A stretch of 64,000 bases of DNA from Synechococcus sp. ROS8604 (GTDB lineage: Bacteria > Cyanobacteriota > Cyanobacteriia > PCC-6307 > Cyanobiaceae). The notes under the pieces were generated by a model, which had not been told where the DNA came from, did not search any database, and was given only the letters and a program-made list of their open reading frames with translations. The translations under genes and the position numbers were made by a program. Numbering within the stretch: position 1 is the stretch's first letter; every line of letters begins with the position of its first letter. The DNA is taken from positions 372,001-436,000 of the forward strand of contig NZ_CP047946.1 in the NCBI RefSeq assembly GCF_014279655.1. Reading direction: 5' to 3'. Below are positions 9,745-29,807 of the stretch, piece by piece.

Positions 9745-10805
9745 GCGGCTGTTCCGAAGCTGAGTCCAATGGGATCTTTGCCGGTGTGGGCGGCAACTTC
9801 AACCAGAGCGTCACTGACGGTAAAGCCATCGCCACGTTGTTTTAAAAAGTCCGTGGCGCGCTGACGCACTTCGTGGCGTACGAAGTCGTACACCTCTCGA
9901 GCTGAAGCCTGGTCCCAGGCATCTGGGGAGAAGCGCTCGATGGAGTCGGCGATGACGGCGCCAGCATTCACGAGTGGATCTGGCAGGACGCGAATGCTGC
10001 GTCGACGCAGATCATCGGCAATCTCAGGCTGCTGGAAAGGAGCATTGGCCGCTGGAACAATCGCGTTGACCTGCATGGCGTTGGCCATCTCCGTGTCGAT
10101 CAAACCGGAGATGGAGCAAGGCAACAGCAGGTCGAGTGGTTTCTCCCACCAGGAGCTGCTCGGTGGCAGAGGTGTTGCGCCCTGAAGCCCCGCCCGCTCG
10201 GGGTTCATGTCAACGGTGAAAACGTCCCAGCCATGCTGAATCAGCGTTTTTGCCACCGTTCCACCCACGGCCCCACAACCGTGCACAAGCGCTTTGCCTG
10301 GCTGCGCCTCCGTTAACGATTGCGCAAGCACGGCTTCAATGGCACCCACGGTGCCGAAGGCGGTGGCGGCGCTGGCATCCACAGGGCTTCCGACGGCAGC
10401 CAAGACATGGGGTGTGAGCGACATCAATCGCTCCATGTCTTCCAGGTTGGTGTTGAGATCACATCCCGTGATCATGGCGCCGTTCAAGGATTGGAGCAGC
10501 TCAGCGGTGACGCTGATCAACTCATCTTTCACAGTGGCGGGTTCCGCAGCCCTGGCCACGATTTTTCCGCCGGCAAAGCCCGTTCCGTAGAGGTCGTGCT
10601 TGTGCGTCATCAGACTGGCCAAGCGATGCCCATCGGCGATGCAGGCCTCATCACTGGAGTAATTGAGCAGCCGCAGGCCACCATTAGCGGGTTTGCCGGT
10701 ATCGCTGCTTTCGGCTACGACAAACACCGAAAGATGATCGGAGACGTGTTGAGCCAGCACCGACACCTCAGGGGGGCCGGCGGATTGCAGAGAAGCCATG
10801 GTCAT
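9741..10805 (-). CDS. Glu/Leu/Phe/Val-type amino-acid dehydrogenase
   Basis: This is an NAD(P)-dependent amino-acid dehydrogenase of the Leu/Phe/Val dehydrogenase type. The N-terminal catalytic domain has GGLRLLNYSSDEA, MTHKH (K69) and the GGK loop (K81), the two lysines expected for substrate binding and catalysis. The coenzyme domain has a G176-CGAVGG Rossmann turn followed by VDMNPERA, whose Asp favours NAD. The length of 354 residues is typical. I used ATG 10805, which overlaps the upstream TGA (TGATG); a longer frame to 10856 would overlap the methyltransferase gene. The reaction is probably reversible oxidative deamination of a branched or aromatic amino acid, or of a modified one. Confidence 0.85.
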   Translation of the reverse strand: MTMASLQSAGPPEVSVLAQHVSDHLSVFVVAESSDTGKPANGGLRLLNYSSDEACIADGHRLASLMTHKHDLYGTGFAGGKIVARAAEPATVKDELISVTAELLQSLNGAMITGCDLNTNLEDMERLMSLTPHVLAAVGSPVDASAATAFGTVGAIEAVLAQSLTEAQPGKALVHGCGAVGGTVAKTLIQHGWDVFTVDMNPERAGLQGATPLPPSSSWWEKPLDLLLPCSISGLIDTEMANAMQVNAIVPAANAPFQQPEIADDLRRRSIRVLPDPLVNAGAVIADSIERFSPDAWDQASAREVYDFVRHEVRQRATDFLKQRGDGFTVSDALVEVAAHTGKDPIGLSFGTAA

Positions 10806-11842
10806 CAGGCCACGCGCTCCATGATCTGGTGGTGCTCCACGTAATCGAGGCTCCACTCCTCTGGAGAGGCTGCAATGCGCTGCTTCAGGCGCTCATAGAC
10901 AAGATCGGCTGTCTCATCACCAGCGACGGAGGCAAAACTGTGGCGGCTCCAGCTGCGGATGGTGGCCATCAGTCCCTCGGCGAACGCCGCGGTGTCTGCG
11001 TCTTCGTTCCAGCGCTTGCGATAGGGGCAGGGCACGTAAACGGTGCGCTCGTCAACAAGCCTGAGGCCATTGAGATAGGCCGCTGAAGTCTTGTCCTTCA
11101 GGGGGGCCATGAATTCGTCCGGAGACTTGTAGAAATTCAGGATCGTGCCCTTGCGGTAGATCTCTTCGCTGATCACTCCCTCATCAGCCAGGCTGCGCCA
11201 GATTTGATGGAGCTGGTCGTGAACATTGCGAGTGACTCCACCGTTATGACCGAGGTATCGGCCTTCTTCATCACGGGACAAATTCACGGTGAGCAGGCGG
11301 CCGCCCACGGCGAGCTCCACGCTGCGGAGCTCGAGGATGCTCGCCCAATCCTTCATGGCCTGAGCCGTGAACCGCGCAAGGGCCTCTTTGTCGTCTGATG
11401 CGAGCACATGGGTGTGCGTGTTGAGGGGGCCTGGGGATTCACTCAACCAATGCATGGCTGTTGCTGAGAAGCCGAAGCTCACGGTCTCAGGGGCCACCAG
11501 GGGTTCGTAAAAGCTACGAGCACTCACCAGGACGGTGGGATTGGGCGCGCGGCCCAGCTGCTTGGCAATATTTTCGGCCAAGGCAACGTTGTCGTTGCTA
11601 GGGAGATCGTTGCCGATCAAGGTGAGATGGGCCTTGGGCTGACGTTGATGCAGCCGATCCATAACCTGGGACCACAGCCCGACAGCGGTGCCTCCGTCGG
11701 CAGCGCCGTAATCCATCAGCACATGGCTGCAATCGTTCGTTAATTGTTCAACACAAGTCAGGGCCCAGTCCGAGGCTGCATCAATGCAGAGGCGTGCGCC
11801 TTCGGTTTGAGCGCTGTAACCCGTGGTCATGGCGATGGCCAT
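10805..11842 (-). CDS. SABATH-family SAM-dependent carboxyl methyltransferase
   Basis: This 345-residue protein resembles plant salicylate/jasmonate carboxyl methyltransferases (SABATH, Methyltransf_7). It starts near TGYSAQTEGA, the region that matches the family's YxxNSxxQ opening. MDYGAADGGT (43-52) is the SAM-binding loop. FSATAMHWLSESP (125-137) is the diagnostic substrate-pocket segment, with H131-W132. A later DLHQ-like region and YKSPDEF match the C-terminal cap. ATG 11842 is preceded by AAGG; the frame also opens with TTG 11860. It heads a four-gene leftward operon. Methyl-ester formation on a small acid is the family reaction; the acceptor here is unknown. Confidence 0.8.
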   Translation of the reverse strand: MAIAMTTGYSAQTEGARLCIDAASDWALTCVEQLTNDCSHVLMDYGAADGGTAVGLWSQVMDRLHQRQPKAHLTLIGNDLPSNDNVALAENIAKQLGRAPNPTVLVSARSFYEPLVAPETVSFGFSATAMHWLSESPGPLNTHTHVLASDDKEALARFTAQAMKDWASILELRSVELAVGGRLLTVNLSRDEEGRYLGHNGGVTRNVHDQLHQIWRSLADEGVISEEIYRKGTILNFYKSPDEFMAPLKDKTSAAYLNGLRLVDERTVYVPCPYRKRWNEDADTAAFAEGLMATIRSWSRHSFASVAGDETADLVYERLKQRIAASPEEWSLDYVEHHQIMERVA

Positions 11843-11884
11843 AGACCTTGTCAGTAGCAAGGGGCACCGTACCGCGTTGTTCTG

Positions 11885-12505
11885 TTAGCGATTTGGCGTT
11901 GTGCCCAGGTCTTGAATTGGGTTGTGGGCGAGAAGCTTCTCCAGTTCTGGCGTTAGTAGGGCAAAGGCGCGTCCTCGATGTCCGTGTTTTTTTTTGTAAT
12001 CCAGACTCATTTCCGCAAAGGTGAGTCCACTGTTTTTGACCTCAAACACGGGGTCGTAGCCGAACCCTTGCGTTCCTCGGGCGCTGAAGGTGATCGAGCC
12101 TTCGCAGTGCCCCTCCACGGCTGCAAGCACGCTGCCGTCCGGTGCTGCGATGCAAAGCGCCGCACTGAAGCGCGCCTGGCGGTCGTTGCGATCTCCCAGC
12201 TCTTGGAGGAGACGTTGAATCCGTTCAGGGTCGGAGTCTGCGTAGCGGGCCGAATAGACCCCAGGGGCACCCCCCAGTGCATCGACGCTCAGGCCCGAAT
12301 CATCGGCGAGTGCCCAATGGCCAGAGGCTTCTGCAACGGTCCTTGCCTTGAGCAGGGCGTTGTCGCGGAAGGTGCTTCCGGTTTCCTCCACCTCGATCCC
12401 CTCGGGTTGGGGTTCCACTTGCAATGGCCAGGGTTGCAGCAGGTTCGAAAATTCTCGGATTTTGCCGGCATTGCCGCTGGCAATTACCAGGACGCGGTTG
12501 GTCAT
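11885..12505 (-). CDS. rdgB: Non-canonical purine NTP pyrophosphatase (RdgB/HAM1)
   Basis: RdgB hydrolyses ITP, XTP and dITP to the monophosphates, keeping deaminated purines out of nucleic acids. The N-terminal motif is VIASGNAGKIREF. The catalytic core has ALADDSGLSVDALGGAPGVYSARYA, broken here for length into ADDSGL and GGAPGVYSARYA, and the C-terminal GFGYDPVF and HRGRA. The length of 206 residues is normal. The ATG at 12505 overlaps the stop of the upstream phosphoglucomutase gene by four bases, so the two are translationally coupled. The open frame extends 96 codons further upstream without family similarity. Confidence 0.95.
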   Translation of the reverse strand: MTNRVLVIASGNAGKIREFSNLLQPWPLQVEPQPEGIEVEETGSTFRDNALLKARTVAEASGHWALADDSGLSVDALGGAPGVYSARYADSDPERIQRLLQELGDRNDRQARFSAALCIAAPDGSVLAAVEGHCEGSITFSARGTQGFGYDPVFEVKNSGLTFAEMSLDYKKKHGHRGRAFALLTPELEKLLAHNPIQDLGTTPNR

Positions 12506-13965
12506 ATGGCGGCAGCAAAGGTGCGGGCCCAGCTCAGAACCTCCTCCACCCGCGACGGGCTTGGGGCTTCGCAATAGAGGCGAAGCAAGGGTTCCGTCCC
12601 AGAGAAGCGGAGCATCAGCCAATGGCTCGGCCCCAGCCTGAGTTTGACGCCGTCTGTGCTGACCACCTCGAGCACAGGGGATCCAGCAACCTCCTGGGGA
12701 GGCGTGTCTGCCAGCAGGGCTTCCAGCCGCCGGCGGGAAGCCATATCGGCGAGGCGGAGATCGAGTCGGTCGTAATGAGCCTCGCCTCCACATCGCTCCT
12801 GAATGGCTTTCATGCGCTCGCCAAGGGGCGTCTTGCTTTCCACCAAGGCTTCGAGCACGAGCATCGCGGCAAACAGGGCATCCCGTTCTGGTAAGTGCAT
12901 GCCAAACCCCACGCCGCCCGACTCCTCGCCGCCGATCAGCACCTCTCCAGCCAACATTTCAGCAGCGATGTACTTGAAGCCCACAGGCAGTTCAAGAACC
13001 TCCCGCCCCAGATCTTCCGCCACCAGGCGCATGAGGTCGGAGCCGCTCACCGTTTTCACCACCGATCCAGGAAGATTTTTGGCGCGAGCCAAGTGATCGA
13101 TCAGCAGGGGCATCAACTGCTGGGTGCTGCAGAACCGTCCGTTTTCATCCACGGCGGCGATGCGGTCTCCATCGCCATCAAACACCAGCCCAACGGCATC
13201 ACGGCCGGCTGCTTTTGAGTCCTTCAGCGCTGCGATCAGCTCCCCTAGGTGAGGGGCCAGGGGTTCCGGTGCACATCCGCCAAAGAGGGGATCACGGTTG
13301 GTTCGGATCTCGGTGATCAGATCCTTGGCGTCGTCTCCCAAGAGGTCTGCAACGCAACCGGCCGCCGACCCATGCATGGGATCGACGAACACGTGCAGAC
13401 CCATGGCGCGCAGGCCAGTGCTCAGAGCCTTGAGGTCCAGTTTTGTTCGCAATCCTGCGAGATGTTCCCCGCGGCCATCAAAGCGTTCGTAACGGCCCGC
13501 CACCGGTGCTGTGATCCCTCCAGCGGCGAGCCGGCGCTCCACCGCTGCCGTGAACGTGCCCTCGACCGATCCACCAAAAGGGCCTTTGATTTTGAGGCCA
13601 AGCCATTCCGGAGGGTTATGGCTGGCCGTGATGACCAGAGCTCCGAGCGATTGGCGCTCCACCACAGCCCAGCTGCAGGCCGGTGTGGGAACAGCTGTAT
13701 CGGTGAGAAGCGGCTCAAGGTCGCAGCCACGGACCGCTGCCGCGACGACTTCGGCCAATTCAGGGGCGAGGAAGCGGCGGTCGTAGCCGATCACCACCGT
13801 GCGGCTGTTCAAGCCTTCAGGTGCCTGGTGGGCGAGCTCCTGGGCTGCTGCGACGGCAACAGGAAGCAATCGCTCCACGGTGATGTCCACCCCCAAAATG
13901 CCTCGCCAACCATCGGTACCAAAACGGATCGGGGAGGCCTCCAGTGGGAGCGGGGAAGACACCAT
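12502..13965 (-). CDS. Phosphoglucomutase/phosphomannomutase family protein
   Basis: This is an alpha-D-phosphohexomutase of about 487 residues that interconverts hexose 1- and 6-phosphates, linking glycogen, sugar-nucleotide and envelope pathways. All four family motifs are present: the phosphoserine loop VITASHNPPEW, the metal loop VFDGDGDRIAAVD, the sugar-binding GGEESGGVGF and the C-terminal phosphate loop RFSGTEPLLRLY. The N-terminus is IRFGTDGWRGILG. ATG 13965 (MVSSPLP) is listed; ATG 13983 is also possible. Substrate preference (glucose, mannose or both) is not readable. The downstream rdgB overlaps it by four bases. Confidence 0.93.
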   Translation of the reverse strand: MVSSPLPLEASPIRFGTDGWRGILGVDITVERLLPVAVAAAQELAHQAPEGLNSRTVVIGYDRRFLAPELAEVVAAAVRGCDLEPLLTDTAVPTPACSWAVVERQSLGALVITASHNPPEWLGLKIKGPFGGSVEGTFTAAVERRLAAGGITAPVAGRYERFDGRGEHLAGLRTKLDLKALSTGLRAMGLHVFVDPMHGSAAGCVADLLGDDAKDLITEIRTNRDPLFGGCAPEPLAPHLGELIAALKDSKAAGRDAVGLVFDGDGDRIAAVDENGRFCSTQQLMPLLIDHLARAKNLPGSVVKTVSGSDLMRLVAEDLGREVLELPVGFKYIAAEMLAGEVLIGGEESGGVGFGMHLPERDALFAAMLVLEALVESKTPLGERMKAIQERCGGEAHYDRLDLRLADMASRRRLEALLADTPPQEVAGSPVLEVVSTDGVKLRLGPSHWLMLRFSGTEPLLRLYCEAPSPSRVEEVLSWARTFAAAI

Positions 13966-18932: not shown

Positions 18933-19937
18933 ATGACCGACCCTATGGTTCCGGTAAAGGTCGGAGTAATTGGAATCGGCAACATGGGTTGGCATCACGC
19001 CCGTGTTCTCAGTCTTTTGAAGGACGCAGATCTTGTTGGCGTCTCCGATCCGGATGCCGAGCGCGGAGCGTTGGCAAAAGACCAGTTCGATTGCCGTTGG
19101 TTCGCGGATTACCGCGAGATGCTGTCTGAGGTCGAAGCGGTTTGCATCGCGGTGCCGACCTTGCTTCACCATGCCGTTGGTTTGGCCTGTTTAGAGGCTG
19201 GGCTGCACGTTTTGATCGAAAAGCCAATTGCGGCCAGTCAAGAGGAGGCGGCTTCGCTCAGCGAGTCGGCAAGCCGGGTGGATCGGCTGCTGCAGGTGGG
19301 GCATATCGAGCGCTTCAATCCTGCGTTTCGTGAGTTGACCAAGGTGGTGGCGAATGAAGAAGTTGTTGTACTGGAAGCCAGACGTCATAGCCCCCATTCC
19401 GATCGAGCCAATGATGTCTCGGTGGTTCTTGATTTGATGATCCACGATTTGGATCTTGTCTTGGAACTCGCCGGGGCATCCGTCGTGCATTTATCAGCGG
19501 CTGGTGGACGTAGTGCTGAAGGGCCGATCGATTACGTGAACGCAACACTTGGATTCGACAACGGTGTGGTCGCAAGCCTGACGGCCAGCAAAATGAGCCA
19601 TCGAAAGATCAGGAGCTTGAGTGCGCACTGTCGAGGAAGCCTTGTAGAAACTGATTTTCTAAATCACACCTTGCATATTCATCGGCGTGCCCATGAGTGG
19701 TATTCCGCTGATCACGGTGAGCTTTTGTATCGCAACGATGGATTCATTGAAGAGGTGAGCACCACGTCGATTGAGCCGCTTTACGCCGAGTTGGAGCATT
19801 TTTTGCAGTGCGTTCGCGGCCGTGAAACCCCTGCCGTGGATGGCCAGCAGGCTTCTCGTGCCCTGCGCCTCGCCGACCTCATTGAGCAGGCGGTGGAGCG
19901 GCCTGCTGGAGGCGTCACACTTTCTTCGCCTATTTGA
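18933..19937 (+). CDS. Gfo/Idh/MocA-family sugar oxidoreductase
   Basis: This is an NAD(P)-dependent oxidoreductase of 334 residues. The N-terminal Rossmann motif is VGVIGIGNMGWHHARVL. The conserved catalytic segment is HVLIEKPIAAS, with Lys in EKP. The C-terminal half has the family's DLMIHDLDLVLEL histidine motif. Paralogues with HHA after the GxGxxG turn often oxidise UDP-sugars such as UDP-GlcNAc at C3, so a role in lipopolysaccharide or exopolysaccharide sugar synthesis is possible. Alternative starts exist at 18945 and 18951. It is the last gene with normal base composition before the AT-rich island. Confidence 0.85.
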   Translation: MTDPMVPVKVGVIGIGNMGWHHARVLSLLKDADLVGVSDPDAERGALAKDQFDCRWFADYREMLSEVEAVCIAVPTLLHHAVGLACLEAGLHVLIEKPIAASQEEAASLSESASRVDRLLQVGHIERFNPAFRELTKVVANEEVVVLEARRHSPHSDRANDVSVVLDLMIHDLDLVLELAGASVVHLSAAGGRSAEGPIDYVNATLGFDNGVVASLTASKMSHRKIRSLSAHCRGSLVETDFLNHTLHIHRRAHEWYSADHGELLYRNDGFIEEVSTTSIEPLYAELEHFLQCVRGRETPAVDGQQASRALRLADLIEQAVERPAGGVTLSSPI

Positions 19938-20551
19938 GCCTTCTGGGAATGACTTCGATAGGACCGATTTGAGACGCTGGCCCATTCAGAGAATTGTTGA
20001 GATCTTCAGTTTCCTGTCAAATCTGATTTTGGACCAGATAGTAAGTCAAGGTTATTGAAACTTAAAGCCTTTGCTGAGAAATATAGGTTGTCTCGTTTTG
20101 CTGAATTGTCTATACGTTATCCCGATTGTTTGAACTTTTCCAAAGTGAACTTCTTTGATTAAATTGTTTACGATTACAGGTTTCACCTGGATTGAATTAG
20201 GGAGACTCTGTACATCAAAAGCTGCTGCGACGGTAATACCTGCCGAATGAACACAGGAGAAATGATCAGACTGGGCCAACCTCTTTGTTGAGCTTATATT
20301 TATGGCTGTATTGATAAAAGCTTTGCGTGAGCTTGGAAGGACTGCAAAGCCTTGATTGTTATCCCCAAGGCTGTTGATGTTGATTTCTCTAAGTGAAGAA
20401 TGAAAATGCTACCCCTTCTAGCCATTCCTCACTCAGCAAAAAACCTTGATGGTCCCCAGTGTGATGAATAAAGGATCGGACACTGGTTAGAGCAGCCCTG
20501 AAGGAGAGGTGCTGAGATGTGCACTTGAATCAAGTGATGCATAGTAGATAT
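19938..20551 (+). other. AT-rich stretch without a confident gene (left end of island)
   Basis: Base composition turns AT-rich here and no reading frame has family similarity. A short frame at 20057-20161 (KAFAEKYRLSRFAELSIRYP) is helix-like and may be a gene remnant. Another short frame near 20304 reads MAVLIKALRELGRTAKP. I see no tRNA or repeat that would mark an attachment site. Confidence 0.6.
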
Positions 20552-20579
20552 ATTAAATTGTGTTGGCTTAGTTATGCTA
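20552..20579 (+). promoter_or_regulatory. Repeated promoter-like element, copy 1
   Basis: ATTAAATTGTGTTG, six variable bases, then TTATGCTA. The same 14-mer, the same spacing and TTATGTTA recur at 22358-22385. TATGCT could serve as a -10 hexamer. Copy 1 ends at the start of the decayed phosphorylase-like gene. Confidence 0.5.
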
Positions 20580-21433
20580 ATGAATAGACCGCAAGATATC
20601 AATTTTGTTATAGTTACGTCTCTTTTGGAGGAAAAGCAGGCTCTTCAAAATTGCTTAGGTATTGAATTTGAAGCAATAGCGAAAAATAGAATTCACTACA
20701 ATTTGGGCACAGTAAAGCATAAAAAACGAGCTATCAATGTTGCTATAGTCCAGCCGATTGACATGGGGCCAATACCAGCGGCTGTCATTGCTACAAAATC
20801 AATAATAGAGTGGCAGCCTGTCGTCATTGCGATGACCGGAATATGTGCAGGGAAATATTACTGTCTAAAGCTAAGTCTTCGACCACATAGCCGGAACGTA
20901 CAAAAATGGCTCTATTACACCCTTTCAGCAATCAATAGGCCAAGATCAATGGGTACTGCAATTTATTCAATCAATAATAGATGACGAAAAATATAGAAGA
21001 GATCTCTTTGAGTCACCCTAAACCTAAAAGCGCTACTGGAAAAATTGATTCCCACATCGGACCAATGGCATCTGGCAGCTTTGTTGTCAAAGACTCGGAA
21101 TATATAAAAGATCTTCTTGACAAGGCCTCTAAGCTTTATGGCATCAATATGGAATCTTATGGAGTTGCATCAGCAGCAAAAATTTGTAGTTCACCGTTCA
21201 GCAATGTCACGTGGTTGGTCACTAAAGGAGTCGTGGATTATGTTGATAATAAGAAGAAAGATGACTGGCATTCGTACTGTGCATTTGCAAGCACAAAATT
21301 TCTGATAATTATAATTAACGAAATGCTGAAGAGAGATAATGCTTGCGCATGGCTAGAGAATCAAAGAAAAGTAAAAATACTAAAAACCAGCGGCATCTGT
21401 CTGATTAATAGAATGGATTCGTTTGGCAAATAA
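20580..21433 (+). pseudogene. Nucleoside phosphorylase (MTA/SAH nucleosidase-like) gene, frameshifted
   Basis: Three reading frames in succession spell one phosphorylase-superfamily domain. Frame A (20580 to about 20875) has FVIVTSLLEEKQALQN and VVIAMTGICAGK, the N-terminal strand and ligand loop. Frame B (about 20881 to 21020) reads AGTYKNGSITPFQQ and then WVLQFIQSIIDDEKYRRD. Frame C (about 21015 to 21433) has HIGPMASGSFVVKD, the purine-binding INMESYGVASAAK and TKGVVDYVDNKKKDDWHSY. Each switch moves by one frame, so at least two indels have occurred. Relatives occur as sensor or effector domains fused to other modules; here only the domain is left. Low GC and decay suggest an acquired gene. 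Confidence 0.8.
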
Positions 21434-21533
21434 CGGAGAATAATGGAATCAGCGATCTGGGCTTGAGATTTGCCTAAGCCCCTTTTCTAGCACTTGTTTC
21501 TTCTCAGTCATGTGCCTAGTATCTTTCACTTAG

Positions 21534-22094
21534 GGAAGCTCTGGGAAGAATTGTTCTTAGCTGTCTAGGCAACGAGTAGCACGCTTTGAATAGGTGATCT
21601 GGCTTGGACGGTCTCAAAAATCTGTTCGCCGAGCCCATGCTTCTCAAGCAGATGGCGGAAGGTGAGGATTGTTGTCTCATCGAGGATCCGGTCGCTGATC
21701 AGCTCGATGCCAGCAAAGCGGCGCATGGTGGGCACCTCAATCAGGGCCTCTTCCAACGGCCTCCGGCCCACTCCGCTTCGCTCCGTAAACGCCGGGGCAC
21801 TCAGGGAATACCACTGCTGCAGCAGGTGAATCAGCAACATGGTGCCGAGCGGATAGGGAGGCCGCCCTCTTTTCTTGCTCGCCTTGGTGTATCGGGGCTT
21901 GATCAAAACTATCAGCGCCTGCCATGGCACGATCGCCTCAATCTCAAGGAGAAATTTCTCACGCTTGGTCTGCTTCTTGTCTGTGGTCAGCTCGTAATCT
22001 GAGAAGCCGAGCTGCTTGCCACCCATCAATCCAGTTCTGGATAGCGATCACAGGTCCATTGTCGCGTGGATCGCCTGGGTTTCCCAGCGTCTCC
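21534..22094. mobile_element. IS5-type element, internally deleted, with target-site duplication
   Basis: Imperfect terminal inverted repeats bound the element: left GGAAGCTCTGGGAAG (21534-21548), right, read on the minus strand, GGAGACGCTGGGAAA (22094-22080), matching at 11 of 15 positions. TTAG flanks both sides (21530-21533 and 22095-22098), which fits the 4-bp YTAR target duplication of IS5-group elements. At 561 bp it is about half the usual length, so the centre and catalytic C-terminal part of the transposase are gone. It is non-autonomous, but its ends may still be mobilised in trans. Confidence 0.85.
21565..22029 (-). pseudogene. Truncated IS5-family transposase
   Basis: The N-terminal domain of an IS5-group transposase is clear: GGKQLGFSDYELTTDKKQTK, RGRPPYPLGTMLLIHLLQQW, EVPTMRRFAGIELISDRILD and ETTILTFRHLLEKHGLGEQI. 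After QIFETV the similarity stops and a short tail ends at 21565, so the DDE catalytic domain is missing. Between LLQQWYSLS and EEALIEVP there is an extra segment (APAFTERSGVGRRPL) compared with the family pattern I know, possibly a small insertion near 21757-21800. The gene is not expected to make an active transposase. Confidence 0.88.
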
Positions 22095-22357
22095 TTAGCA
22101 GCAGAGTGAAAGTTGATGAGTATTTGTCACGATATATTCTTTTTGTCCTGCTCGCTAAAATAGTGATTTTGAGAGAATTGTAGATTGATCTATTTTGGAC
22201 TCTGCATTAAACTATTTCAGAAATTAGTGGACCTAGAAGCTATTTCTACTTTCGGTATGAGCATGATCTGAGACAGAAAAAGATATTACTTTGCAAGCAA
22301 ATAGTGTCAATAATACTTGTTTTTTGGACAGCAAGTTAGGCGCTGGGTTCATCATTG
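22095..22357 (+). other. AT-rich intergenic stretch
   Basis: Between the IS remnant and the next promoter-like element there is AT-rich sequence with stop codons in all frames. I see no gene, tRNA or hairpin terminator in it. Confidence 0.55.
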
Positions 22358-22385
22358 ATTAAATTGTGTTGCGTCGTTTATGTTA
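22358..22385 (+). promoter_or_regulatory. Repeated promoter-like element, copy 2
   Basis: ATTAAATTGTGTTG, six bases, then TTATGTTA: the same 14-mer and spacing as copy 1 at 20552-20579. TATGTT is a possible -10. It lies about 30 bases upstream of the oxygenase-like gene. Confidence 0.5.
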
Positions 22386-22414
22386 CATTGGTTTTATCTA
22401 GTCAATGAATGAAG

Positions 22415-23224
22415 ATGGCTGATCAAAACTTGAAAGCTTCCCAGGTTTCGTATCCTTGGTACGATTCGAGATGGCTGCAAAAATACAAGCTTGCATGTCG
22501 TGCAATCAGCAGTCATCATCCAGGTAGGCTGCAGGAATTCAAGAATGCATTCAATGCTCTCAGAACTCGATCTGATTTTAAGACATTAGAGTATAAATCA
22601 ATTTTTGACGAGAGCACTCTTACAAGGATACGTGAAATTATTAAATCAATTCGTCCAACAGAAATTGAGTTGCATGAGCTTAGGGATTTTCGACGCTTTA
22701 TTCTGCATGATCATCCTTATATGACCATGTTGCAGAACAACTTAATTGATTTAGTTAGCGAGGGAGCTGGAGAGGAAGTTGAACCGGCTTATAATTTTCT
22801 GTGTCTTTATCGTTCCGGTGGTGTTTGTAAGGTGCACATGGATGCGCCAGTAGCTAAATGGACTTTAGATGTTTGCGTCGAACAGGATGAACCTTGGCCT
22901 ATTTACTTGAGCCAGGTTTTGGATTGGCCTGAAAATTATATTCAACCGCGTGGTGATTGGGAAAAGCAAATTAAAATGTCCTGCGCTAACGAATTTGATA
23001 GTTACTCTCTGGATGCAGGAACGGGAATCCTATTCTCTGGTAGTAGTCAATGGCATTATCGGGATAAGAAACCAATGTCTTCATCCCCAAAATTGTCACC
23101 TTTTTGTGATTTAATTTTCTTTCATTATATCCCAGTCGGAATGAGTGAGATCGTAAAACCAATGAATTGGCATCGAATCTTTGATTTGCCCGAGCTCTCC
23201 GCTCCTTCCTTTGAATGTGATTAA
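22415..23224 (+). CDS. 2OG-Fe(II) oxygenase-like hydroxylase, substrate unknown
   Basis: This 269-residue protein fits the double-stranded beta-helix 2-oxoglutarate/Fe(II) oxygenases. A facial-triad pattern is visible: H141-x-D143 in KVHMDAP and H214 in LFSGSSQWHYRD, about 70 residues apart. The sentence-like motif DAGTGILFSGS before the distal histidine is typical of the family's penultimate strand. A 2OG-binding Arg or Lys near IPVG (240) is not certain. The start is ATG 22415; ATG 22409 is two codons upstream. Codon use is AT-rich like the rest of the island. Proteins of this type hydroxylate free or peptidyl amino acids, so linkage to the nearby RiPP-type genes is plausible but unproven. 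Confidence 0.65.
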   Translation: MADQNLKASQVSYPWYDSRWLQKYKLACRAISSHHPGRLQEFKNAFNALRTRSDFKTLEYKSIFDESTLTRIREIIKSIRPTEIELHELRDFRRFILHDHPYMTMLQNNLIDLVSEGAGEEVEPAYNFLCLYRSGGVCKVHMDAPVAKWTLDVCVEQDEPWPIYLSQVLDWPENYIQPRGDWEKQIKMSCANEFDSYSLDAGTGILFSGSSQWHYRDKKPMSSSPKLSPFCDLIFFHYIPVGMSEIVKPMNWHRIFDLPELSAPSFECD

Positions 23225-23366
23225 CATCTATCCTGATAGATATTAAGGATTAATATTCAGGAAGGAAAGGGACTATTTGCATGCTTAAGTTTTGCAATCG
23301 TGATAAGTAGATTGATTTCTTTTCGGCGCAGGCTATTATATTTTGTAATCGATTGCTTTTCTGCTA

Positions 23367-24542
23367 ATGATTGACCATGTCAACGCAAAAAATAGTTACG
23401 TTGGGTCAATTTTACGTAAAATTGTTTCAATTGTTGTTGAGGCGGGTGCCGAGCTTCATCCCTCTCTCCTGATAGTTGAAAAAGATGGTGAATTATCACT
23501 GCATTCAAGTATGCCTTTGAAAGTAAAAGATTATGCTCAATTGTGCAGTCTTCCCCGTGTCTTGTTGTTGCCTACGAATGGAGCAGACTGGCAGATTTGC
23601 TCTGAACAATTATTCTTAAAAAGGGCTCCTGATTCTTTGAGTTTAATTCAAGAAGAGTTGCTTTGCCTTCATGTTGAAATTTACAATGCAACATGTAAGA
23701 TAAAAAATAGTTCCAAGCATAATCTCTCGCAGCTTGTTTTGGAGCGGCCAGAGATATTGGAAGCTGTTCAACAGATCCAGCCTTATAGGACATTCGATTT
23801 ATCATTAGCCGATCAGTTTGTATCAAACCGATTGTGTTGGATTGATGATGTATCCACAAGCGCAGAACATGTGGAGCAGATAAATAATTCGGATTCAGGG
23901 GAGCCTGGGATCTTTCCAATAATGGATTTTTTGAATAATCATCATGATGCAGGTAATTTTGAGTTTGATGACTATTCAGTTAAGATGGAAATTTCCAGGC
24001 CAAATAATACTAGTGAATGTTTTTTGCGTTATGGAGGGCGGCGTGACGTACTCGACTATGCATTAGGAATGGGTTACTTCGACCAAACATCACCGTATGC
24101 ACACTCCGCTCCGTTTTCAGCCGAACTGAACCATCTTGGTGCTCTTCAGATTGAATCTTTACTTTCAAGACCTAAAAGTCGTTTTGATCCACCGCATGTC
24201 CAATTTACAGATGATGGCATCCGATTAAGTCATTTCACATGTCATCTAAAGAAGCCCAATCGCTCTCTTCTGGCCTTTTCTTTAGCGATTGAGGGGCTTT
24301 CGCGTCGCTCTGGCGGCACACCATCAGAGGCCAAAGAGCTTATATTGCTTGCAAAGGATGCCTTACTTCAAGAAAACCTGATTCGTCTTGAAAAATTACG
24401 ATCAGCTGCTAATCCTTATGCCATTCATTGTCCCTCGGCCCAATTGTTGATGGATGCTGCACGGCGGCAGGCGAATATTCTTCAGGTTGTTTTGGGGTCG
24501 AGCTCAAGAAAAACTATTAATTATACTTTTCCACGCGATTGA
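23367..24542 (+). CDS. SET-domain-like protein (LSMT type), divergent
   Basis: This 391-residue protein has a weak but consistent match to SET-domain methyltransferases of the Rubisco LSMT type. GIFPIMDFLNNHHDAGN (181-197) corresponds to the usual P-x-x-D-x-x-N-H-x-x-x-x-N motif, and CFLRYGGRRDVLDYALGMGY (218-237) to the YG...L...YGF motif that binds SAM and lysine. The C-terminal 130 residues are helical and resemble the substrate-binding domain of LSMT. The normal NH pair is altered to NNHH, so activity is uncertain. It follows the oxygenase-like gene after 142 bases on the same strand. Function is not known. Confidence 0.55.
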   Translation: MIDHVNAKNSYVGSILRKIVSIVVEAGAELHPSLLIVEKDGELSLHSSMPLKVKDYAQLCSLPRVLLLPTNGADWQICSEQLFLKRAPDSLSLIQEELLCLHVEIYNATCKIKNSSKHNLSQLVLERPEILEAVQQIQPYRTFDLSLADQFVSNRLCWIDDVSTSAEHVEQINNSDSGEPGIFPIMDFLNNHHDAGNFEFDDYSVKMEISRPNNTSECFLRYGGRRDVLDYALGMGYFDQTSPYAHSAPFSAELNHLGALQIESLLSRPKSRFDPPHVQFTDDGIRLSHFTCHLKKPNRSLLAFSLAIEGLSRRSGGTPSEAKELILLAKDALLQENLIRLEKLRSAANPYAIHCPSAQLLMDAARRQANILQVVLGSSSRKTINYTFPRD

Positions 24543-24677
24543 ATTTTCTTTTAATGTTAATTTGATTAAGAATAAAGTTTTTGAGTTGTCCCAGAATTCG
24601 AATCGATATTTTTTTATTGTTGGTCGAGGTAAATTGCTATTGGCAAGCACAACTGTTAGTGGTGAATACCGTATATT
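24543..24677. other. Short AT-rich gap between convergent genes
   Basis: The SET-like gene (rightward) and the B2-like gene (leftward) converge here. I see no clear hairpin terminator. The minus-strand frame after the B2 stop stays open for about 45 codons without recognisable similarity. Confidence 0.5.
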
Positions 24678-25085
24678 CTATAATGTTAAGATATGGCAAT
24701 CGTCGTTAGCATTAATGCCTGGGGTGAGCTCCTTGCCTAAGCTTGTAAGCCAAGCGTGAGGAATTCGGAGATCTTTCCTTACTGCTGTCATTCCTATGTG
24801 AAGTTCATTTTGTACGCCTAGAATATCAAGTAATACTCTGCCAAGAGTCGACCGACTTAGGCAACTAGAAAACATCTTGGAATGGCAGCTTCTCTGCATT
24901 ATAAGGCTTTTGACTCTAGGGATTAAAAAAGCAATCAAACGCTTTTGGCTCTTTAGCGTTAATTTTTTCCAAGGCCTGTTTTTGATTAAATTAAAAACCA
25001 CATAGTCAGGAAGTAAATTGATAAGAAGCCATATGTTAGCGTCTGCCAGACTGAAGAATAGATACGAAGCGGGCCTTAAGTTCAT
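24678..25085 (-). CDS. Lasso-peptide B2-like transglutaminase-fold protease
   Basis: This 135-residue protein matches stand-alone B2 proteins of lasso-peptide clusters, cysteine proteases that remove the leader of a RiPP precursor. The nucleophile motif is SSCLSRSTLGRVLLDILG with C75, and the histidine motif is RIPHAWL with H110, 35 residues later. In characterised McjB the catalytic Asp lies 12 residues after the His; here that position is P122 (ELTPG), so the triad seems incomplete. The N-terminal 60 residues are hydrophobic and helical, as is usual. ATG 25085 overlaps the pqqD-like stop by four bases, so the pair is translationally coupled. Low GC marks it as part of the island. Confidence 0.75.
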   Translation of the reverse strand: MNLRPASYLFFSLADANIWLLINLLPDYVVFNLIKNRPWKKLTLKSQKRLIAFLIPRVKSLIMQRSCHSKMFSSCLSRSTLGRVLLDILGVQNELHIGMTAVRKDLRIPHAWLTSLGKELTPGINANDDCHILTL

Positions 25086-25351
25086 CGATTTATTGCTTTG
25101 ATCATGCCTTTATTTACTGCTTCTTGGAGGAAATTAGCTGTCTCTTTCGTGCATTGATCAGGTTCAACGTCGAATTGGTTCAGCAATTCAGAGATGATGT
25201 CTTCTATAGTTTTAGGTACGCTTATTGCATTCCATATGGCAGTCCCTGATGAATTCAAATTTAAATATTCCGCAGTGGAAGGATCAAAGAGGCATGCCGT
25301 GCCATCCAGCTCGGCAGAGCAAACATCAGAACTCCGAGAATAAAGCTTCAT
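25082..25351 (-). CDS. PqqD-family RiPP recognition element (lasso B1-like)
   Basis: An 89-residue PqqD-like protein. These winged-helix domains bind the leader peptide of ribosomally made, modified peptides and present it to partner enzymes. The pattern is complete: DGTACLFDPSTAEYLNLNSS (residues 16-35) forms the beta strands, GTAIWNAI (36-43) the recognition helix, followed by TIEDIISELLNQFDV and a last helix TANFLQEAVNKGMI. It lies directly upstream of, and overlaps, the B2-like protease, the standard B1-B2 order. A good sigma-70-like promoter lies 19 bases upstream. No cyclase or kinase partner is encoded beside it. Confidence 0.82.
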   Translation of the reverse strand: MKLYSRSSDVCSAELDGTACLFDPSTAEYLNLNSSGTAIWNAISVPKTIEDIISELLNQFDVEPDQCTKETANFLQEAVNKGMIKAINR

Positions 25352-25369
25352 GAATCTAAGTTTTTCATT

Positions 25370-25397
25370 ATTTTATTGGGCTGTGATTCCTTGTCAA
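25370..25397 (-). promoter_or_regulatory. Sigma-70-type promoter for the pqqD-like/B2-like pair
   Basis: On the minus strand TTGACA (25397-25392), a 16-base spacer and TAAAAT (25375-25370) form a near-consensus promoter. The ATG of the pqqD-like gene is 18 bases beyond the -10, so the transcript would have a very short leader. Confidence 0.6.
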
Positions 25398-25535
25398 GTT
25401 CTTTGAAACGTTTTCGCGCGGGATATTAATCAAAGACCCGACTAAAAGTGGTGTGCGGAATTTTTTTTAAGCCGCTGAAAGTACTTGTGCCTCTAGCTCC
25501 TATGTTCCCTTGCCTTAAACGCCTGTTTGAGCAAT

Positions 25536-25560
25536 CTCTTTGCGTTGTCAACGTAAAGAG
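25536..25560. repeat. 25-bp near-perfect palindrome
   Basis: CTCTTTGCGTTG, a central T, then CAACGTAAAGAG: 12-base arms with one mismatch. It lies about 140 bases upstream of the pqqD-like promoter. No T-run follows on either side, so it is not a standard terminator; an operator or a small IS end is possible. Confidence 0.6.
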
Positions 25561-25581
25561 ATTAATTATCTACTTGATGCT

Positions 25582-25743
25582 CTAATCGAGCAATTGCGGC
25601 GTTGGGTCTCTGAGGGGATTCTCTCCATTGCTTATGGCCTTAAGTCTCGGCTGATTGCTGCCTTTGATTGTTGAAAAGCTTGTTGAACTTGGAGATGATA
25701 TTTGATGGACTGATTGTGCTTTGATTGCTTTTATTTGTGTCAT
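25582..25743 (-). CDS. Small frame upstream of the pqqD-like gene, doubtful
   Basis: A 53-codon frame starts with ATG 25743 (MTQIKAIKAQSVHQISSPSS) and ends at TAG 25582, same strand as the RiPP-type pair. It is rich in Ser, Thr and Gln, and has a polar C-terminal half with ISNGENPLRDPTPQ. There is no good ribosome-binding site, and the opposite strand holds a helix-like remnant in the same place. It could be a precursor peptide only if the pair still works; chance is as likely. Confidence 0.2.
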   Translation of the reverse strand: MTQIKAIKAQSVHQISSPSSTSFSTIKGSNQPRLKAISNGENPLRDPTPQLLD

Positions 25744-25780
25744 TTGCTGGCAGGCTACGATTTTTAAGACTTATTTGTTA

Positions 25781-28700
25781 TTATAGTATTCCTTCTTGTT
25801 CGGTTAGTTCACGCATTGCTTCGATCAGCCATCGGCGGCATCGAGCAGGGGATGCTTGATAAAACTGACTCCAAGCCGCGGCTTTGTGTTGGTTGTAGCT
25901 GCCAATGTCTTGATCGGGATGGGTGCTTTGCCAGCCCACACGCACGGCATGGCCAATCACCACATCCAGTGCAATGTCGTCCTCAAATCGCATGTCAGGA
26001 TTAGTCATCGCGAAGGCCATCAGAGAGAGCAGGCTTTCCGTGCACAGTTGGCGGTACTCAGCAGCTTCAATACGACTGAGCAGGTGCTCGACCTGAATGG
26101 CGAAGTTGCGTTCGCCTGGGGTTTTTTCCAGCACCAAAGCGCTGGTTAGACGGTTGCGTCGCTCCAATTTGTCTCCGATTACCAGCCCACGGCAGTGATG
26201 CAGGAGGGACCAGATGCCGGCATAGAACTCCTTCGGGACTTGTTGCAGGGAGCCCAAGCGCATGCGGTGTTGCAGCCAGTCGGATCCGCTGGGTCGTTCC
26301 TCAAGGGGCTCAGGCACGGTCCACTGCACATGTCCGCGCAGGTGAAGCAGCTCTCGTCGCTGTAGGGCTGCGCGGGCGTGGTCGACGTCGTTTAGCAGGG
26401 CTTGAAGGCGCAAGCTGATCGCATGGGGGGCTTCGCTGCACAGGGCTTCAAAGGCTTCGTCCTGACTCAGTTGCCTCTCGGCTGCGAGTTCTGAGGTGAG
26501 CAGAAGCAGCAATTGCCCCAGCTGCAGGGTGAGCGTGCCCTTGAGTTTTTCTGGTTCTCGGCGGGCAAGGCCATCAAGAGCCACGAGCAATTCCTGCTGC
26601 AGCATCCGTTCTCGGCCGTCATTGCCACAGGTGCGTTCAATCAGCGCGGCAATGGCCGGGCTGGAAGCCGGGGCGCTGAGACGGGAGTCGCTGGTGTAGT
26701 TCCTTCCCACCACCACTTGCTTTTGGCGGCTGAGTAGGTCGATCACAGCATCCTCAAGCTGAGGATGGACCTGCCCCATTGCACCTGCACAGCGGCGTGC
26801 CACATTCCAGTCACCCTGGCTCAGCCCGCGGTGGTAGATCTCCTCCAGCAGGGTGACCAGCTCAATCGGTGTGCCTTGAGGGCCACTGAGAATCGCTCGA
26901 GGCCCCAGTTGGCGCTTGAGCAGTTCAAGCACTTCGGCTTGTTCTCGGAGCGAGTGGCTGCTCCAGAGGCGATTGCGGAGCTGAGCGAGGGGGATGTCAT
27001 CGAGCTCCTGCTCCTGGGCTGCGGTGAGGTCGCTGAAGTCGGTGGAGTCTTGTAGGTAGCGCGCTGCATTGCTCCGTTGCTGGGCGTTGCTCTTGGCAGT
27101 CGTGGTGGGCAGCGTCACCCACTGAGCGCTGAGAGAGAGTGTTTCAAGGTCGCTGAAGCAAACAGGAACATCCTCGATGCGTCCGGATTGCAGACGCGTG
27201 GTGAGATCGACCAGCAGCTCAGGGTTGTTCTCAAGAAGGTTGGCTTCCACTGGGATCAGCAAGAGCGGTGAACCTTCACCGCGCCAGTGCCGCTGCAGCA
27301 GGTGCAGTTCATTGATGACCGTTTCCATGAGCTGGCGTGGGTCATGACTGACGAAAAAGGTGTCTTCTTCCAACACGGCCGGTAGGACGGCAAGCTGCTC
27401 GTCGCCCTGGCGGTAGAGGCGGGCTGTGTCCGAGGTGTCGGCTCGGAGCATCGGCTGACCGCTCAAGCGCAGAGCTTCATCTGCCCCGACGGCGCCGAGG
27501 CGATCGTTGAGGTTGCTGGATGGCACCACCTGGATCGGGCAGGCCTGTGGATCGCTGACCGGGAGCCCTCGTGCCTTGAGTTCAGCGGCGAGGGAGCTGT
27601 TGGTGGGTGCAAGGGCCACCAGAACCTGTTCGGCGCCGATCTCGGCGGGGAATCGGCGGCCGCAGGGATCCAAGTCCCCTGGCTCGATCAGTCCTGCCAT
27701 CAGCATGTCCCCCAGCCAGGCAAGGCTCTGGGTCCAAAGCAAAGGCACGTTCTCGTTGGCTAGGCGTTGTTGGCTTCCTGGTGCCCGTCGTTCCAGTTCC
27801 ACCGCACTGTCTGGGACCAGATAGAGCTCGGGGTAGAGCTGCTGTCCATGGCGTTCGACCTGCAGGATTTTGAGCCGTTCTTGCCAGTAATGCGCGTCGG
27901 TCCAACGCTCTTCGCAGCAGGCTGTCAGCTGCTCATAGGCCAAAAAAAGAGGCCATTCCGATTCCACGCCTTCGAAATTCACGAGTTCGGCCCGTTCGTA
28001 ATGCAGCCGACTGACGTCTTCGACAACGGTTTGATGGCCGTCGCGGCGGAAGCGTTTGTATCCATAGGGGCCACCGAGCTCGCGGCGGATGCGTTGGACG
28101 GTTCGCTCCACCAGCTCGTGCTCTTCCACCGCCCAGGCTGGGTAGCCGATGATCGAGAGACAGGCGCTGTCGACCTCCTTGCTGGCGGATTCCCTGGGCA
28201 GAAGTCCTTGCAGGGCCCGACGCAAGCGGACGACAGCCCCTTGCGGCACCAGCACCTGCACCGATCCATCCCCGTGGGAGCTGAAAAGATCCACGCCATC
28301 AAGGGCCTCAAGTGCCGCTTTGGCCATGCCAATGGAACTGGCGTTGCGTTCGGGCAAGCCTTGATTCCCCTTGTCTCCCCGCTCCCAAATTCCGTAGTCG
28401 GGCACTCGGTAGGCCCGGGCTACGTAGTAGACGAGGTTTTGGATGAACGCCACTTCATGGCGATTGCGAATCACGGCGAGACCGCCGCGGCTGAGTTGAG
28501 CGAGCTGCAATAAGAACAGCGATGTCGCATCTAGTTGCAGATGTCCCCAGCCGTCATCGGCCACAACCTGATCGCCATTGGCGCTGTTGTATTTGGCATG
28601 CAGGGCGTCGAGCGGATCGAGGCTGTACTTGAAGCGCTCCACTTTTGAGGCTTGGCGCATCATGCTGTTAAGCAAGCCGCGCATCAGCCCCAGAACCCGT

Positions 28701-29029
28701 TGTTCGAGTTCCCAGCTGCGTTGGCTGCTGCCTCCGTGAAGGCGACGATGGGCGATCGCCAGGCCCCAAACGCACTGAATCGAGTACACGCAATCGCGAA
28801 CCCAGGCGTCTCCGTAGTTTCCGTGCACGGTGTTTGCCGTGCTCGCTGGAAGCAATCCGCTCACGGGATGCTGACGTTCTAAGACCACCGCTTCGATGGC
28901 CAGATCCAGGCTCTTTAGTTTTTCAAGGCGTAGCTCGTGCTGCTCCTGAGGGGTCGGATGCGACAAAACCGTGGCCTTCCAAGCGACCGGATCTAGATTC
29001 TCGCTCGCAGTCGATTTAGGGATGGACAT
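25781..29029 (-). CDS. GH15/phosphorylase-kinase alpha-like (alpha/alpha)6-barrel protein
   Basis: This is a large protein of about 1082 residues related to glycoside hydrolase family 15 and the alpha/beta subunits of phosphorylase kinase. The N-terminal catalytic-like barrel has HPVSGLLPASTANTVHGNYG, DAWVRDCVYSIQCVWGLAIA, DGWGHLQLDATSLFLLQLAQ and YGIWERGDKGNQGLPERNAS, which line a glucoamylase-type pocket. The last 500 residues resemble the helical C-terminal region of the kinase regulatory subunits. Substrate and activity are not known. ATG 29029 (MSIPKSTA) and ATG 29038 are both possible. Its 5' end overlaps that of the divergent glycosyltransferase gene. Confidence 0.82.
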   Translation of the reverse strand: MSIPKSTASENLDPVAWKATVLSHPTPQEQHELRLEKLKSLDLAIEAVVLERQHPVSGLLPASTANTVHGNYGDAWVRDCVYSIQCVWGLAIAHRRLHGGSSQRSWELEQRVLGLMRGLLNSMMRQASKVERFKYSLDPLDALHAKYNSANGDQVVADDGWGHLQLDATSLFLLQLAQLSRGGLAVIRNRHEVAFIQNLVYYVARAYRVPDYGIWERGDKGNQGLPERNASSIGMAKAALEALDGVDLFSSHGDGSVQVLVPQGAVVRLRRALQGLLPRESASKEVDSACLSIIGYPAWAVEEHELVERTVQRIRRELGGPYGYKRFRRDGHQTVVEDVSRLHYERAELVNFEGVESEWPLFLAYEQLTACCEERWTDAHYWQERLKILQVERHGQQLYPELYLVPDSAVELERRAPGSQQRLANENVPLLWTQSLAWLGDMLMAGLIEPGDLDPCGRRFPAEIGAEQVLVALAPTNSSLAAELKARGLPVSDPQACPIQVVPSSNLNDRLGAVGADEALRLSGQPMLRADTSDTARLYRQGDEQLAVLPAVLEEDTFFVSHDPRQLMETVINELHLLQRHWRGEGSPLLLIPVEANLLENNPELLVDLTTRLQSGRIEDVPVCFSDLETLSLSAQWVTLPTTTAKSNAQQRSNAARYLQDSTDFSDLTAAQEQELDDIPLAQLRNRLWSSHSLREQAEVLELLKRQLGPRAILSGPQGTPIELVTLLEEIYHRGLSQGDWNVARRCAGAMGQVHPQLEDAVIDLLSRQKQVVVGRNYTSDSRLSAPASSPAIAALIERTCGNDGRERMLQQELLVALDGLARREPEKLKGTLTLQLGQLLLLLTSELAAERQLSQDEAFEALCSEAPHAISLRLQALLNDVDHARAALQRRELLHLRGHVQWTVPEPLEERPSGSDWLQHRMRLGSLQQVPKEFYAGIWSLLHHCRGLVIGDKLERRNRLTSALVLEKTPGERNFAIQVEHLLSRIEAAEYRQLCTESLLSLMAFAMTNPDMRFEDDIALDVVIGHAVRVGWQSTHPDQDIGSYNQHKAAAWSQFYQASPARCRRWLIEAMRELTEQEGIL

Positions 29030-29807
29030 CACCAGCATCGGTCCGCGTGATCAACGTCGCTTCCAAGTGCTGGGGGTGCCAGTCGATGCTTGTCGCGATG
29101 TCACGGCAGCAGCCATCGGTGTGCATGCCGACGGGGGAGGTCAGCTCGTGACCCTGAATGCCGAAATGACGATGGCGGCACGTGCCAACCCACGCTTAGG
29201 CGCCGTGATTGCTGACGCCGATCTGGTGGTCCCCGACGGTGCAGGCGTTGTTTGGGCTCTTCGTTTGCAGGGTGTCCGGGTTCGCCGAAGCCCTGGCATT
29301 GAACTGGCGTGGGACTTGTTGGCTTATGCCGAGGCCCATGGTTGGTCGGTGGCGCTCGTGGGGGCTGCGCCGCAGGTCATGGAGCGCCTGTGTGATCGCT
29401 TGGTGGTGGAGCGGCCTGAATTGCGCCTGGTGCTGGCGCAACATGGCTATCTCAGCGAGGAGAAATGGCCTCAGCTGGAAGCCAACTTGTGCAAGCTGAA
29501 CCCAGATTTGGTGCTTGTTGCTCTTGGCGTTCCCCGTCAAGAAGTTTGGACTCAGCGCTTGAAAGCCACGCAAACCGGCATCTGGATGGGTGTGGGTGGC
29601 AGCTTTGATGTCTGGGCTGGCCTCAAGGAACGGGCACCACGATGGGCCAGCCATTTCCAGGTGGAATGGCTTTACAGGCTTTTGCAGGAACCAAGCCGTT
29701 GGAGGCGTTATCTCGCCCTACCCCAGTTTGTTTGGGCTGTTTTGGTCAGCGGAAGCCGACGGAAGCCTGCCAAACAAAAGCAAGCAACAGGAAGAACAAG
29801 GGAATGA
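29022..29807 (+). CDS. WecB/TagA/CpsF-family glycosyltransferase
   Basis: This GT26-family enzyme of about 261 residues transfers an N-acetyl-mannosamine-type sugar to a lipid-linked acceptor in polysaccharide synthesis. The motifs are [32 protein letters not shown] with the catalytic Asp, [27 protein letters not shown] and [20 protein letters not shown] chose ATG 29022; upstream codons in the frame lack similarity and lie over the GH15-like gene. The C-terminal tail is basic. The 3' end overlaps psbK on the opposite strand by about 62 bases. Confidence 0.88.

Follow-up and report, generated by a model that had tools for sequence, protein, structure and literature searches.

What purpose does a PqqD-like/B2-like gene pair serve when no cyclase and no precursor peptide can be recognised beside it? 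The question is raised by a window of 64,000 nucleotides from Synechococcus sp. ROS8604 (G000:C1:372001-436000, G000 being the strain's own genome), where an AT-rich island carries such a pair facing genes for a 2-oxoglutarate (2OG)-Fe(II) oxygenase-like protein and a SET-like protein. The initial annotation recognised no cyclase (C) or precursor (A) and left a choice between an eroded cluster for a lasso-type ribosomally synthesized and post-translationally modified peptide (RiPP) and a different peptide-modifying system. The absence holds within the window but not in the genome, which encodes C and two precursors 28-38 kb away from the pair; the pathway therefore appears split rather than stripped. 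The lasso-type reading is retained and the choice between erosion and a different system is not: the island is probably (about 0.75) half of a lasso-type RiPP pathway whose genes are divided between two AT-rich islands on the same chromosome.

The island contains four open reading frames (ORFs), all of them open, and a promoter (window positions):

22409-23224, plus strand, 2OG-Fe(II) oxygenase-like protein of 271 aa, a putative precursor-peptide hydroxylase
23367-24542, plus strand, SET-like protein of 391 aa of the RLSMT/SETD3/SETD6 class, a putative peptide methyltransferase
24678-25085, minus strand, B2-like leader peptidase (Transglut_core3) of 135 aa
25082-25351, minus strand, PqqD-like recognition element (B1) of 89 aa
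25397-25370, minus strand, near-consensus sigma-70-type promoter TTGACA-16-TAAAAT, 5' of PqqD-B2

The G+C content (GC) is 0.36-0.46 across about 22.0-25.7 kb (500-base windows) and 0.41 for 19938-25780, whereas the core genes on either side have about 0.53-0.64, in agreement with the four-gene AT-rich island first described. B1 is recognised as PqqD-like (PF05402, E 6e-17), and its top NCBIfam match is lasso_PqqD_Bac at 58.2 bits, below the cut-off of 80. The PqqD stop and B2 start overlap in ATGA (4 nt), which bears out the predicted translational coupling. The assignment of B2 stands with Pfam (PF13471, E 4e-7, 30.3 bits, cut-off 26) but not with the NCBIfam lasso B2 model (24 bits, cut-off 33). 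Cys75 and His110 are conserved throughout the 12 usable B2 sequences in an alignment from which a thirteenth row (L009, in the wrong reading frame) was left out, so that B2 at least shows no inactivating change at these positions. Of 400 genomes of the family, 19 have a PF13471 match, and of these G000 is the sole member of its genus. The promoter matches the consensus at 11 of 12 bases and ranks first among 11 promoter-like sites, a number no higher than chance (shuffles: mean 9.3, sd 3.5).

The missing components lie to the left of the window. The C protein encoded by a related cluster has a homologue at G000:C1:364780-366330 (38% identity, E 1.6e-103), in an ORF that lies 5.7 kb to the left of the window start (372001) and 28 kb to the left of the 2OG gene; the homologue shows kinship to NF033535, a model of lasso cyclases (E 3.5e-8), yet reaches 32.5 of 525 bits. 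A PF00733 match at 249.7 kb is an Asn-synthetase-like gene that is truncated and surrounded by sugar genes. This second island comprises (G000:C1 positions):

351031-351939, sulfotransferase, open
351936-352970, HPr-kinase (HPrK)-like protein of 344 aa, open (PF07475 33.7 bits, cut-off 33.3)
352928-354181, first nucleotidyltransferase
356016-357098, second nucleotidyltransferase
357040-358788, ABC transporter, open
358859-359020, precursor A1 with a lasso-type leader, a small ORF preceding the transporter
about 359409-359555, precursor A2, a second copy about 0.5 kb upstream of A1
364780-366342, short cyclase C of 520 aa, no stops

The 15 kb left of C also carry a frameshifted HPrK-like copy and a transporter remnant. 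The transporter, the precursors, C, the frameshifted kinase and the second nucleotidyltransferase are AT-rich (GC 0.37-0.42, beside 0.40-0.41 for the window island), whereas the open kinase, the sulfotransferase and the first nucleotidyltransferase have GC 0.59-0.62; from this contrast we infer that an incoming AT-rich cluster may have joined a resident GC-rich remnant and later been split.

The precursors A1 and A2 have the same leader and core frame and differ, over the stretch compared, at 2 synonymous and 7 non-synonymous codons. A1 has WQTPEI (leader stretch LEWQTPEI), Thr(-2), Asp8 and Glu9, A2 has LQAPEI (without the aromatic residue), Thr(-2) and Glu9, and both end in Ser; rules for Ile(-2) and Thr(-2) are given in PMC10368454. 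With the predicted cut, both precursors fit the lasso pattern of a YxxPxL-like leader, Thr(-2) and an Asp or Glu at core positions 7-9. Asp8 of A1 is Ala in A2, with Glu9 kept in both, and a Ser1-Glu9 ring is therefore favoured. Lys7 of A1 was rejected as the sole SET target, the residue at that position in A2 being Arg. A genome search with the precursor returned the A1 and A2 places and beyond these only two weak matches (E 0.55 and 0.88). Nine candidate precursors of the window's cluster type were picked by eye on leader motif and position, A2 coming from a duplication and A1 and A2 not being independent; with the cut set 15 residues past the start of the leader motif, a rule fixed after the sequences had been seen, eight of the nine have Asp or Glu at core position 8 or 9 (shuffled cores: mean 1.93; 0 of 5000 shuffles reach 8), and five also passed the acceptor filter of a wider scan. 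Thr(-2) is present in seven (Ser in L067, Ile in L069) and a C-terminal Ser in all nine; the precursors of L077-L081 end in A, C, P, P and P although HPrK-like genes are present. The wider scan covered 3138 small ORFs from 20 loci, of which 14 satisfy the rule for leader, Thr and acceptor, against 1.55 expected; one of the 14 (in L012) is antisense and was discounted.

In relatives the genes are found together. Across 10 related genomes, 11 loci have PqqD, B2 and C contiguous (L010, L012, L025/L066, L067, L068, L069 and L071-L075), as read by mapping known proteins onto them, and an HPrK-like gene is present in nine of these loci, SET in three (L010, L012, L025) and 2OG in none; several of the contigs are too short for an absence to mean much. 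The L012 and L025 clusters adjoin CBS, MocA and GH15 genes, as the window island does, and thus occupy the same chromosomal locus in G339 and G426. Its markers in the window are:

18933-19937, plus strand, Gfo/Idh/MocA oxidoreductase, left flank, marker of the locus common to G339 and G426
25781-29038, minus strand, GH15/phosphorylase-kinase-like gene, right flank, likewise a neighbour in G339 and G426

The SET-like nature of the 23367-24542 protein, proposed from the start, emerges from its homologues: a profile built from 18 of them matches human SETD6 at 4.6e-5 and SETD3 at 0.0023 over the P-x-x-D-x-x-N-H and YG regions, while Pfam recognises SET in none of the 18 and single-sequence Pfam, NCBIfam and PDB searches gave no support for it. 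RLSMT, SETD6 and SETD3 make up the first 15 VIA-align rows at Z 5.0-5.9, barely over unrelated rows at 4.7 (model pLDDT 55). A genome scan with SET yielded 19 loci, in five of which (L025, L026, L027, L028, L031) a C gene is near, and five loci, from three phyla, have SET directly adjoining C. SET lies tail-to-tail with C, with overlapping ends, in the PqqD-B2-C clusters of G167, G339 and G426 (L027, L031 and L025 in the scan). A contig of a beta-proteobacterial metagenome-assembled genome (L026) carries HPrK-like, sulfotransferase, ATP-grasp, SET, C and PqqD genes with four candidate precursors, and a Microthrixaceae contig (L028) carries C, SET, HPrK-like, PqqD and sulfotransferase genes; tblastn found no B2 in either. 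A dedicated lasso clade of SET was rejected, as a tree of 18 rows with long branches (L034, L035 and the duplicates L027, L030 and L031 left out) does not unite the lasso-linked proteins (4 changes; 204 of 500 shuffles as low). Because of this, and because the more distant SET genes (L032-L043) have neighbours that look unrelated where listed, the link between SET and lasso clusters is best described, on gene order and phylogeny, as a repeated, non-exclusive association. Two further SET genes, of G186 (L011, about 4084) and G090 (L013, about 10800), are both frameshifted before the same conserved region; a programmed frameshift was rejected, since the break falls at a C9 run in G186 but at no run in G090, and with no common run error or decay is equally likely.

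The 2OG assignment of the other facing gene likewise survives through fold and motif. The protein has a Foldseek E of 1.2e-4, with 26 rows at E<=0.001 that are mostly named 2-oxoglutarate or Fe(II) enzymes, and a VIA-align Z of 14.3 against 2rg4, from a weak predicted model (pLDDT 55). An HxD...H motif (H143, D145, H216) is common to it and to a G152 homologue 50-52% identical, an assignment made from two sequences. Single-sequence Pfam, NCBIfam and PDB searches gave no support for 2OG, and a PDB profile search with the two sequences gave no match. The G152 homologue overlaps an HPrK-like gene in a lasso-type cluster with its own C, B2-like and PqqD-like parts. That cluster is of a different make, with a C that has a glutaminase domain, an S74-fused precursor, a PRMT-like methyltransferase with a PqqD-like tail, and the HPrK-like gene. 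Its precursor-like leader (L009:13863-14282; YERPQL...LTQ, followed by GGAGTMNE) is joined in one protein to a Peptidase_S74 chaperone domain, and the PRMT-like methyltransferase with the PqqD-like C-terminal stretch (L009:12715-13830) is a second type of protein methyltransferase beside the 2OG gene. The expectation that relatives of the pair occur near such oxygenase and SET genes is thus borne out in G167, G339 and G426, where SET is beside C, and in the G152 cluster for 2OG. A cyanophage protein annotated as a 2OG-Fe(II) oxygenase gives a 28% partial match to the window protein, and weak partial matches occur in four genomes of another family; viral scans with the 2OG and SET proteins found no relatives.

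From the genes, their motifs, positions and co-occurrence a course of biosynthesis may be proposed in which the cut site, the ring, the knot, the order of steps, each enzymatic activity and the cooperation of the two islands are predictions. Known lasso-pathway kinases, hydroxylases and methyltransferases act on the linear precursor and B1 aids the hydroxylase (PMC8498205, PMC9266682). If the G000 proteins behave alike, PqqD would bind the leader (LEWQTPEI) and present A1 and A2 to the kinase and to the 2OG and SET proteins, with B2 and C following. Those three proteins would modify the precursor while it is still linear, the likeliest site for the kinase being the C-terminal Ser; B2 would cleave after the residue next to Thr(-2), C would close a Ser1-Glu9 ring (Asp8 being possible in A1 only), and the ABC transporter would export the product.

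Such a pathway would be of a known kind. Clusters of the paeninodin/pseudomycoidin type contain A, B1, B2, C, an ABC transporter, an HPr-kinase homologue and a nucleotidyltransferase, some with a putative sulfotransferase (PMC8498205, PMC9266682), and G000 resembles them in its separate PqqD and B2, Asn-synthetase-like C, ABC transporter, HPr-kinase-like, nucleotidyltransferase and sulfotransferase genes, and in precursors that end in Ser, the residue modified by the kinase there (PMC8498205, PMC9266682). Unlike them, it is picocyanobacterial, is divided between two islands, has a C without a glutaminase domain and adds SET-like and 2OG-like genes; several relatives of the G000 cluster have an ATP-grasp gene besides. 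The core genes thus point to a kinase-bearing (paeninodin-like) lasso system with unusual tailoring, whose product and knot are predicted from them, and the split, the short C and the added SET and 2OG genes set it apart. A SET protein is expected to act on a side-chain nitrogen. LasF and StspM are lasso O-methyltransferases acting on the C-terminal carboxyl group (PMC8498205), and the resemblance lies in methylation as a lasso tailoring step, which for SET is putative. The profile match likens the window protein to class VII SET proteins (RLSMT, SETD3, SETD6), from which it differs in being bacterial, in having relatives near lasso cyclases in some genomes, and in reading N-N-H-H. In canucin, the 2OG hydroxylase CanE, aided by B1, hydroxylates the C-terminal Asp of the precursor (PMC9266682); there, too, a 2OG enzyme belongs to a lasso pathway in which B1 and B2 are separate, whereas the core of G000 ends in Ser, and its 2OG protein, without detectable Pfam kinship, is likened to CanE by description. 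Term searches of the available parts of two reviews on lasso and RiPP modification (one being PMC8498205) found no mention of SET, and a literature search for "lasso peptide" with "SET domain" found nothing related.

Several observations weigh against a single pathway of this kind. The cluster is not contiguous in G000. Pfam does not find Asn_synthase in its C, and a whole-genome PF00733 search gave three short matches and missed C, which besides lacking the glutaminase domain has SSGLDS and GGDQ in place of the SGGIDS and GGDE, or a further variant, of longer cyclases. The precursor falls below the NCBIfam paeninodin (PadeA) cut-off (15.9 of 27 bits, E 0.0077), the L025 precursor has no acceptor at core positions 7-9, no precursor was found in L010, L012, L071 or L072, and the nine candidates were chosen and cut as described above. 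The triad of the B2 cysteine protease is Cys-His-Asp, and the third, catalytic Asp is not evident across the aligned B2 subfamily. An ATP-grasp gene was not found in the strain's own genome, and the second HPrK-like copy is frameshifted. Among the tailoring genes, a close 2OG homologue occurs in 1 of 399 other genomes (G152), on which its linkage rests; 14 of the 19 SET loci have no C gene nearby; and the window SET has N191 and M235 where all 17 aligned relatives have His and Tyr. It retains N190, H192 and Y222, but to judge from the two departures the copy may be weak or altered.

The scarcity of C near SET genes, the failure of lasso-linked SETs to form one clade, the unrelated-looking genes beside SET in L032-L043 and the solitary 2OG homologue would fit SET and 2OG proteins that serve another target, such as self-protection or an unrelated protein, and merely share the island with PqqD-B2. 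This explanation survives best among the alternatives, yet is unlikely given the five loci of three phyla in which SET stands directly beside C and the G152 2OG homologue that overlaps the kinase gene of a lasso-type cluster. Within the split lasso-type pathway, the stronger proposition that three or more phyla have recruited RLSMT/SETD6-class SET proteins for lasso tailoring, as methyltransferases that work beside a clade of short glutaminase-less cyclases, and that the pathway still works in this strain, is advanced tentatively, at somewhat less than even odds.

Both islands might instead be decaying leftovers of a once contiguous lasso cluster whose peptide is no longer made. Some erosion is real: the kinase copy is frameshifted, the second transporter is a remnant, ATP-grasp was not found, and SET departs from its relatives at two otherwise fixed residues. 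The split of about 28 kb, the isolation of G000 in its genus with respect to B2 and the insertion sequence (IS) remnants at both islands point the same way; at its left side the window island carries

21565-22029, minus strand, truncated IS5-family transposase

and 77% identical DNA is present at the left end of the second island (G000:C1, about 349.7-350.1 kb). Wholesale decay is nevertheless rather improbable, as the 2OG, SET, B2, PqqD and C genes, the ABC transporter, both precursors, one kinase and one sulfotransferase are all open, and A1 and A2, for all their differences elsewhere in the core, retain the leader and Glu9. Service of the kinase, sulfotransferase, nucleotidyltransferase and ATP-grasp genes to a surface polysaccharide rather than a peptide is highly improbable, for although the ATP-grasp protein of several relatives places near the "sugar-transfer associated" ATPgrasp_ST, the sulfotransferase is of a general family and a family 2 glycosyltransferase is present in the G426 and G162 clusters, the PqqD, B2, C and precursor genes are adjacent, and kinase, nucleotidyltransferase and sulfotransferase genes are known in lasso clusters (PMC8498205).

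If SET proteins do modify lasso peptides, the RiPP tailoring enzymes would gain a protein-methylating fold that is familiar chiefly from work on histones, Rubisco and actin. Cluster callers based on proximity would report an incomplete cluster in G000. The tandem A1 and A2, with a fixed leader and acceptor and a varied core, offer a direct test of ring size and modified residues.

Between the precursors and C, a 326-aa protein with an HExxHxxGxxH motif (G000:C1:361105-362085, L082:12105-13085) has no Pfam match at 0.01 and is possibly a secreted metalloprotease. To the left of the four island genes, window 20574-21433 holds two AT-rich ORFs, the second weakly like the C-terminal part of an MTA/SAH nucleosidase (E 1.6e-4, far below the cut-off), which are possibly a broken gene. 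Elsewhere in the chromosome, three further sets of HPrK-like, sulfotransferase and PqqD-like genes lie at G000:C1 about 1158-1161 kb and about 2434-2442 kb (L023:8342-11042; L024:5038-7759 and 10444-12631), two of them in tandem, with a transposase-like gene alongside; the HPrK match of the third set is partial, and the surroundings of the three sets revealed no B2, C or leader-type precursor. A small ORF at L023:2476-2646 contains a leader-like stretch, LTLDQFTTISGG, which we take to be reminiscent of other cyanobacterial RiPP leaders.

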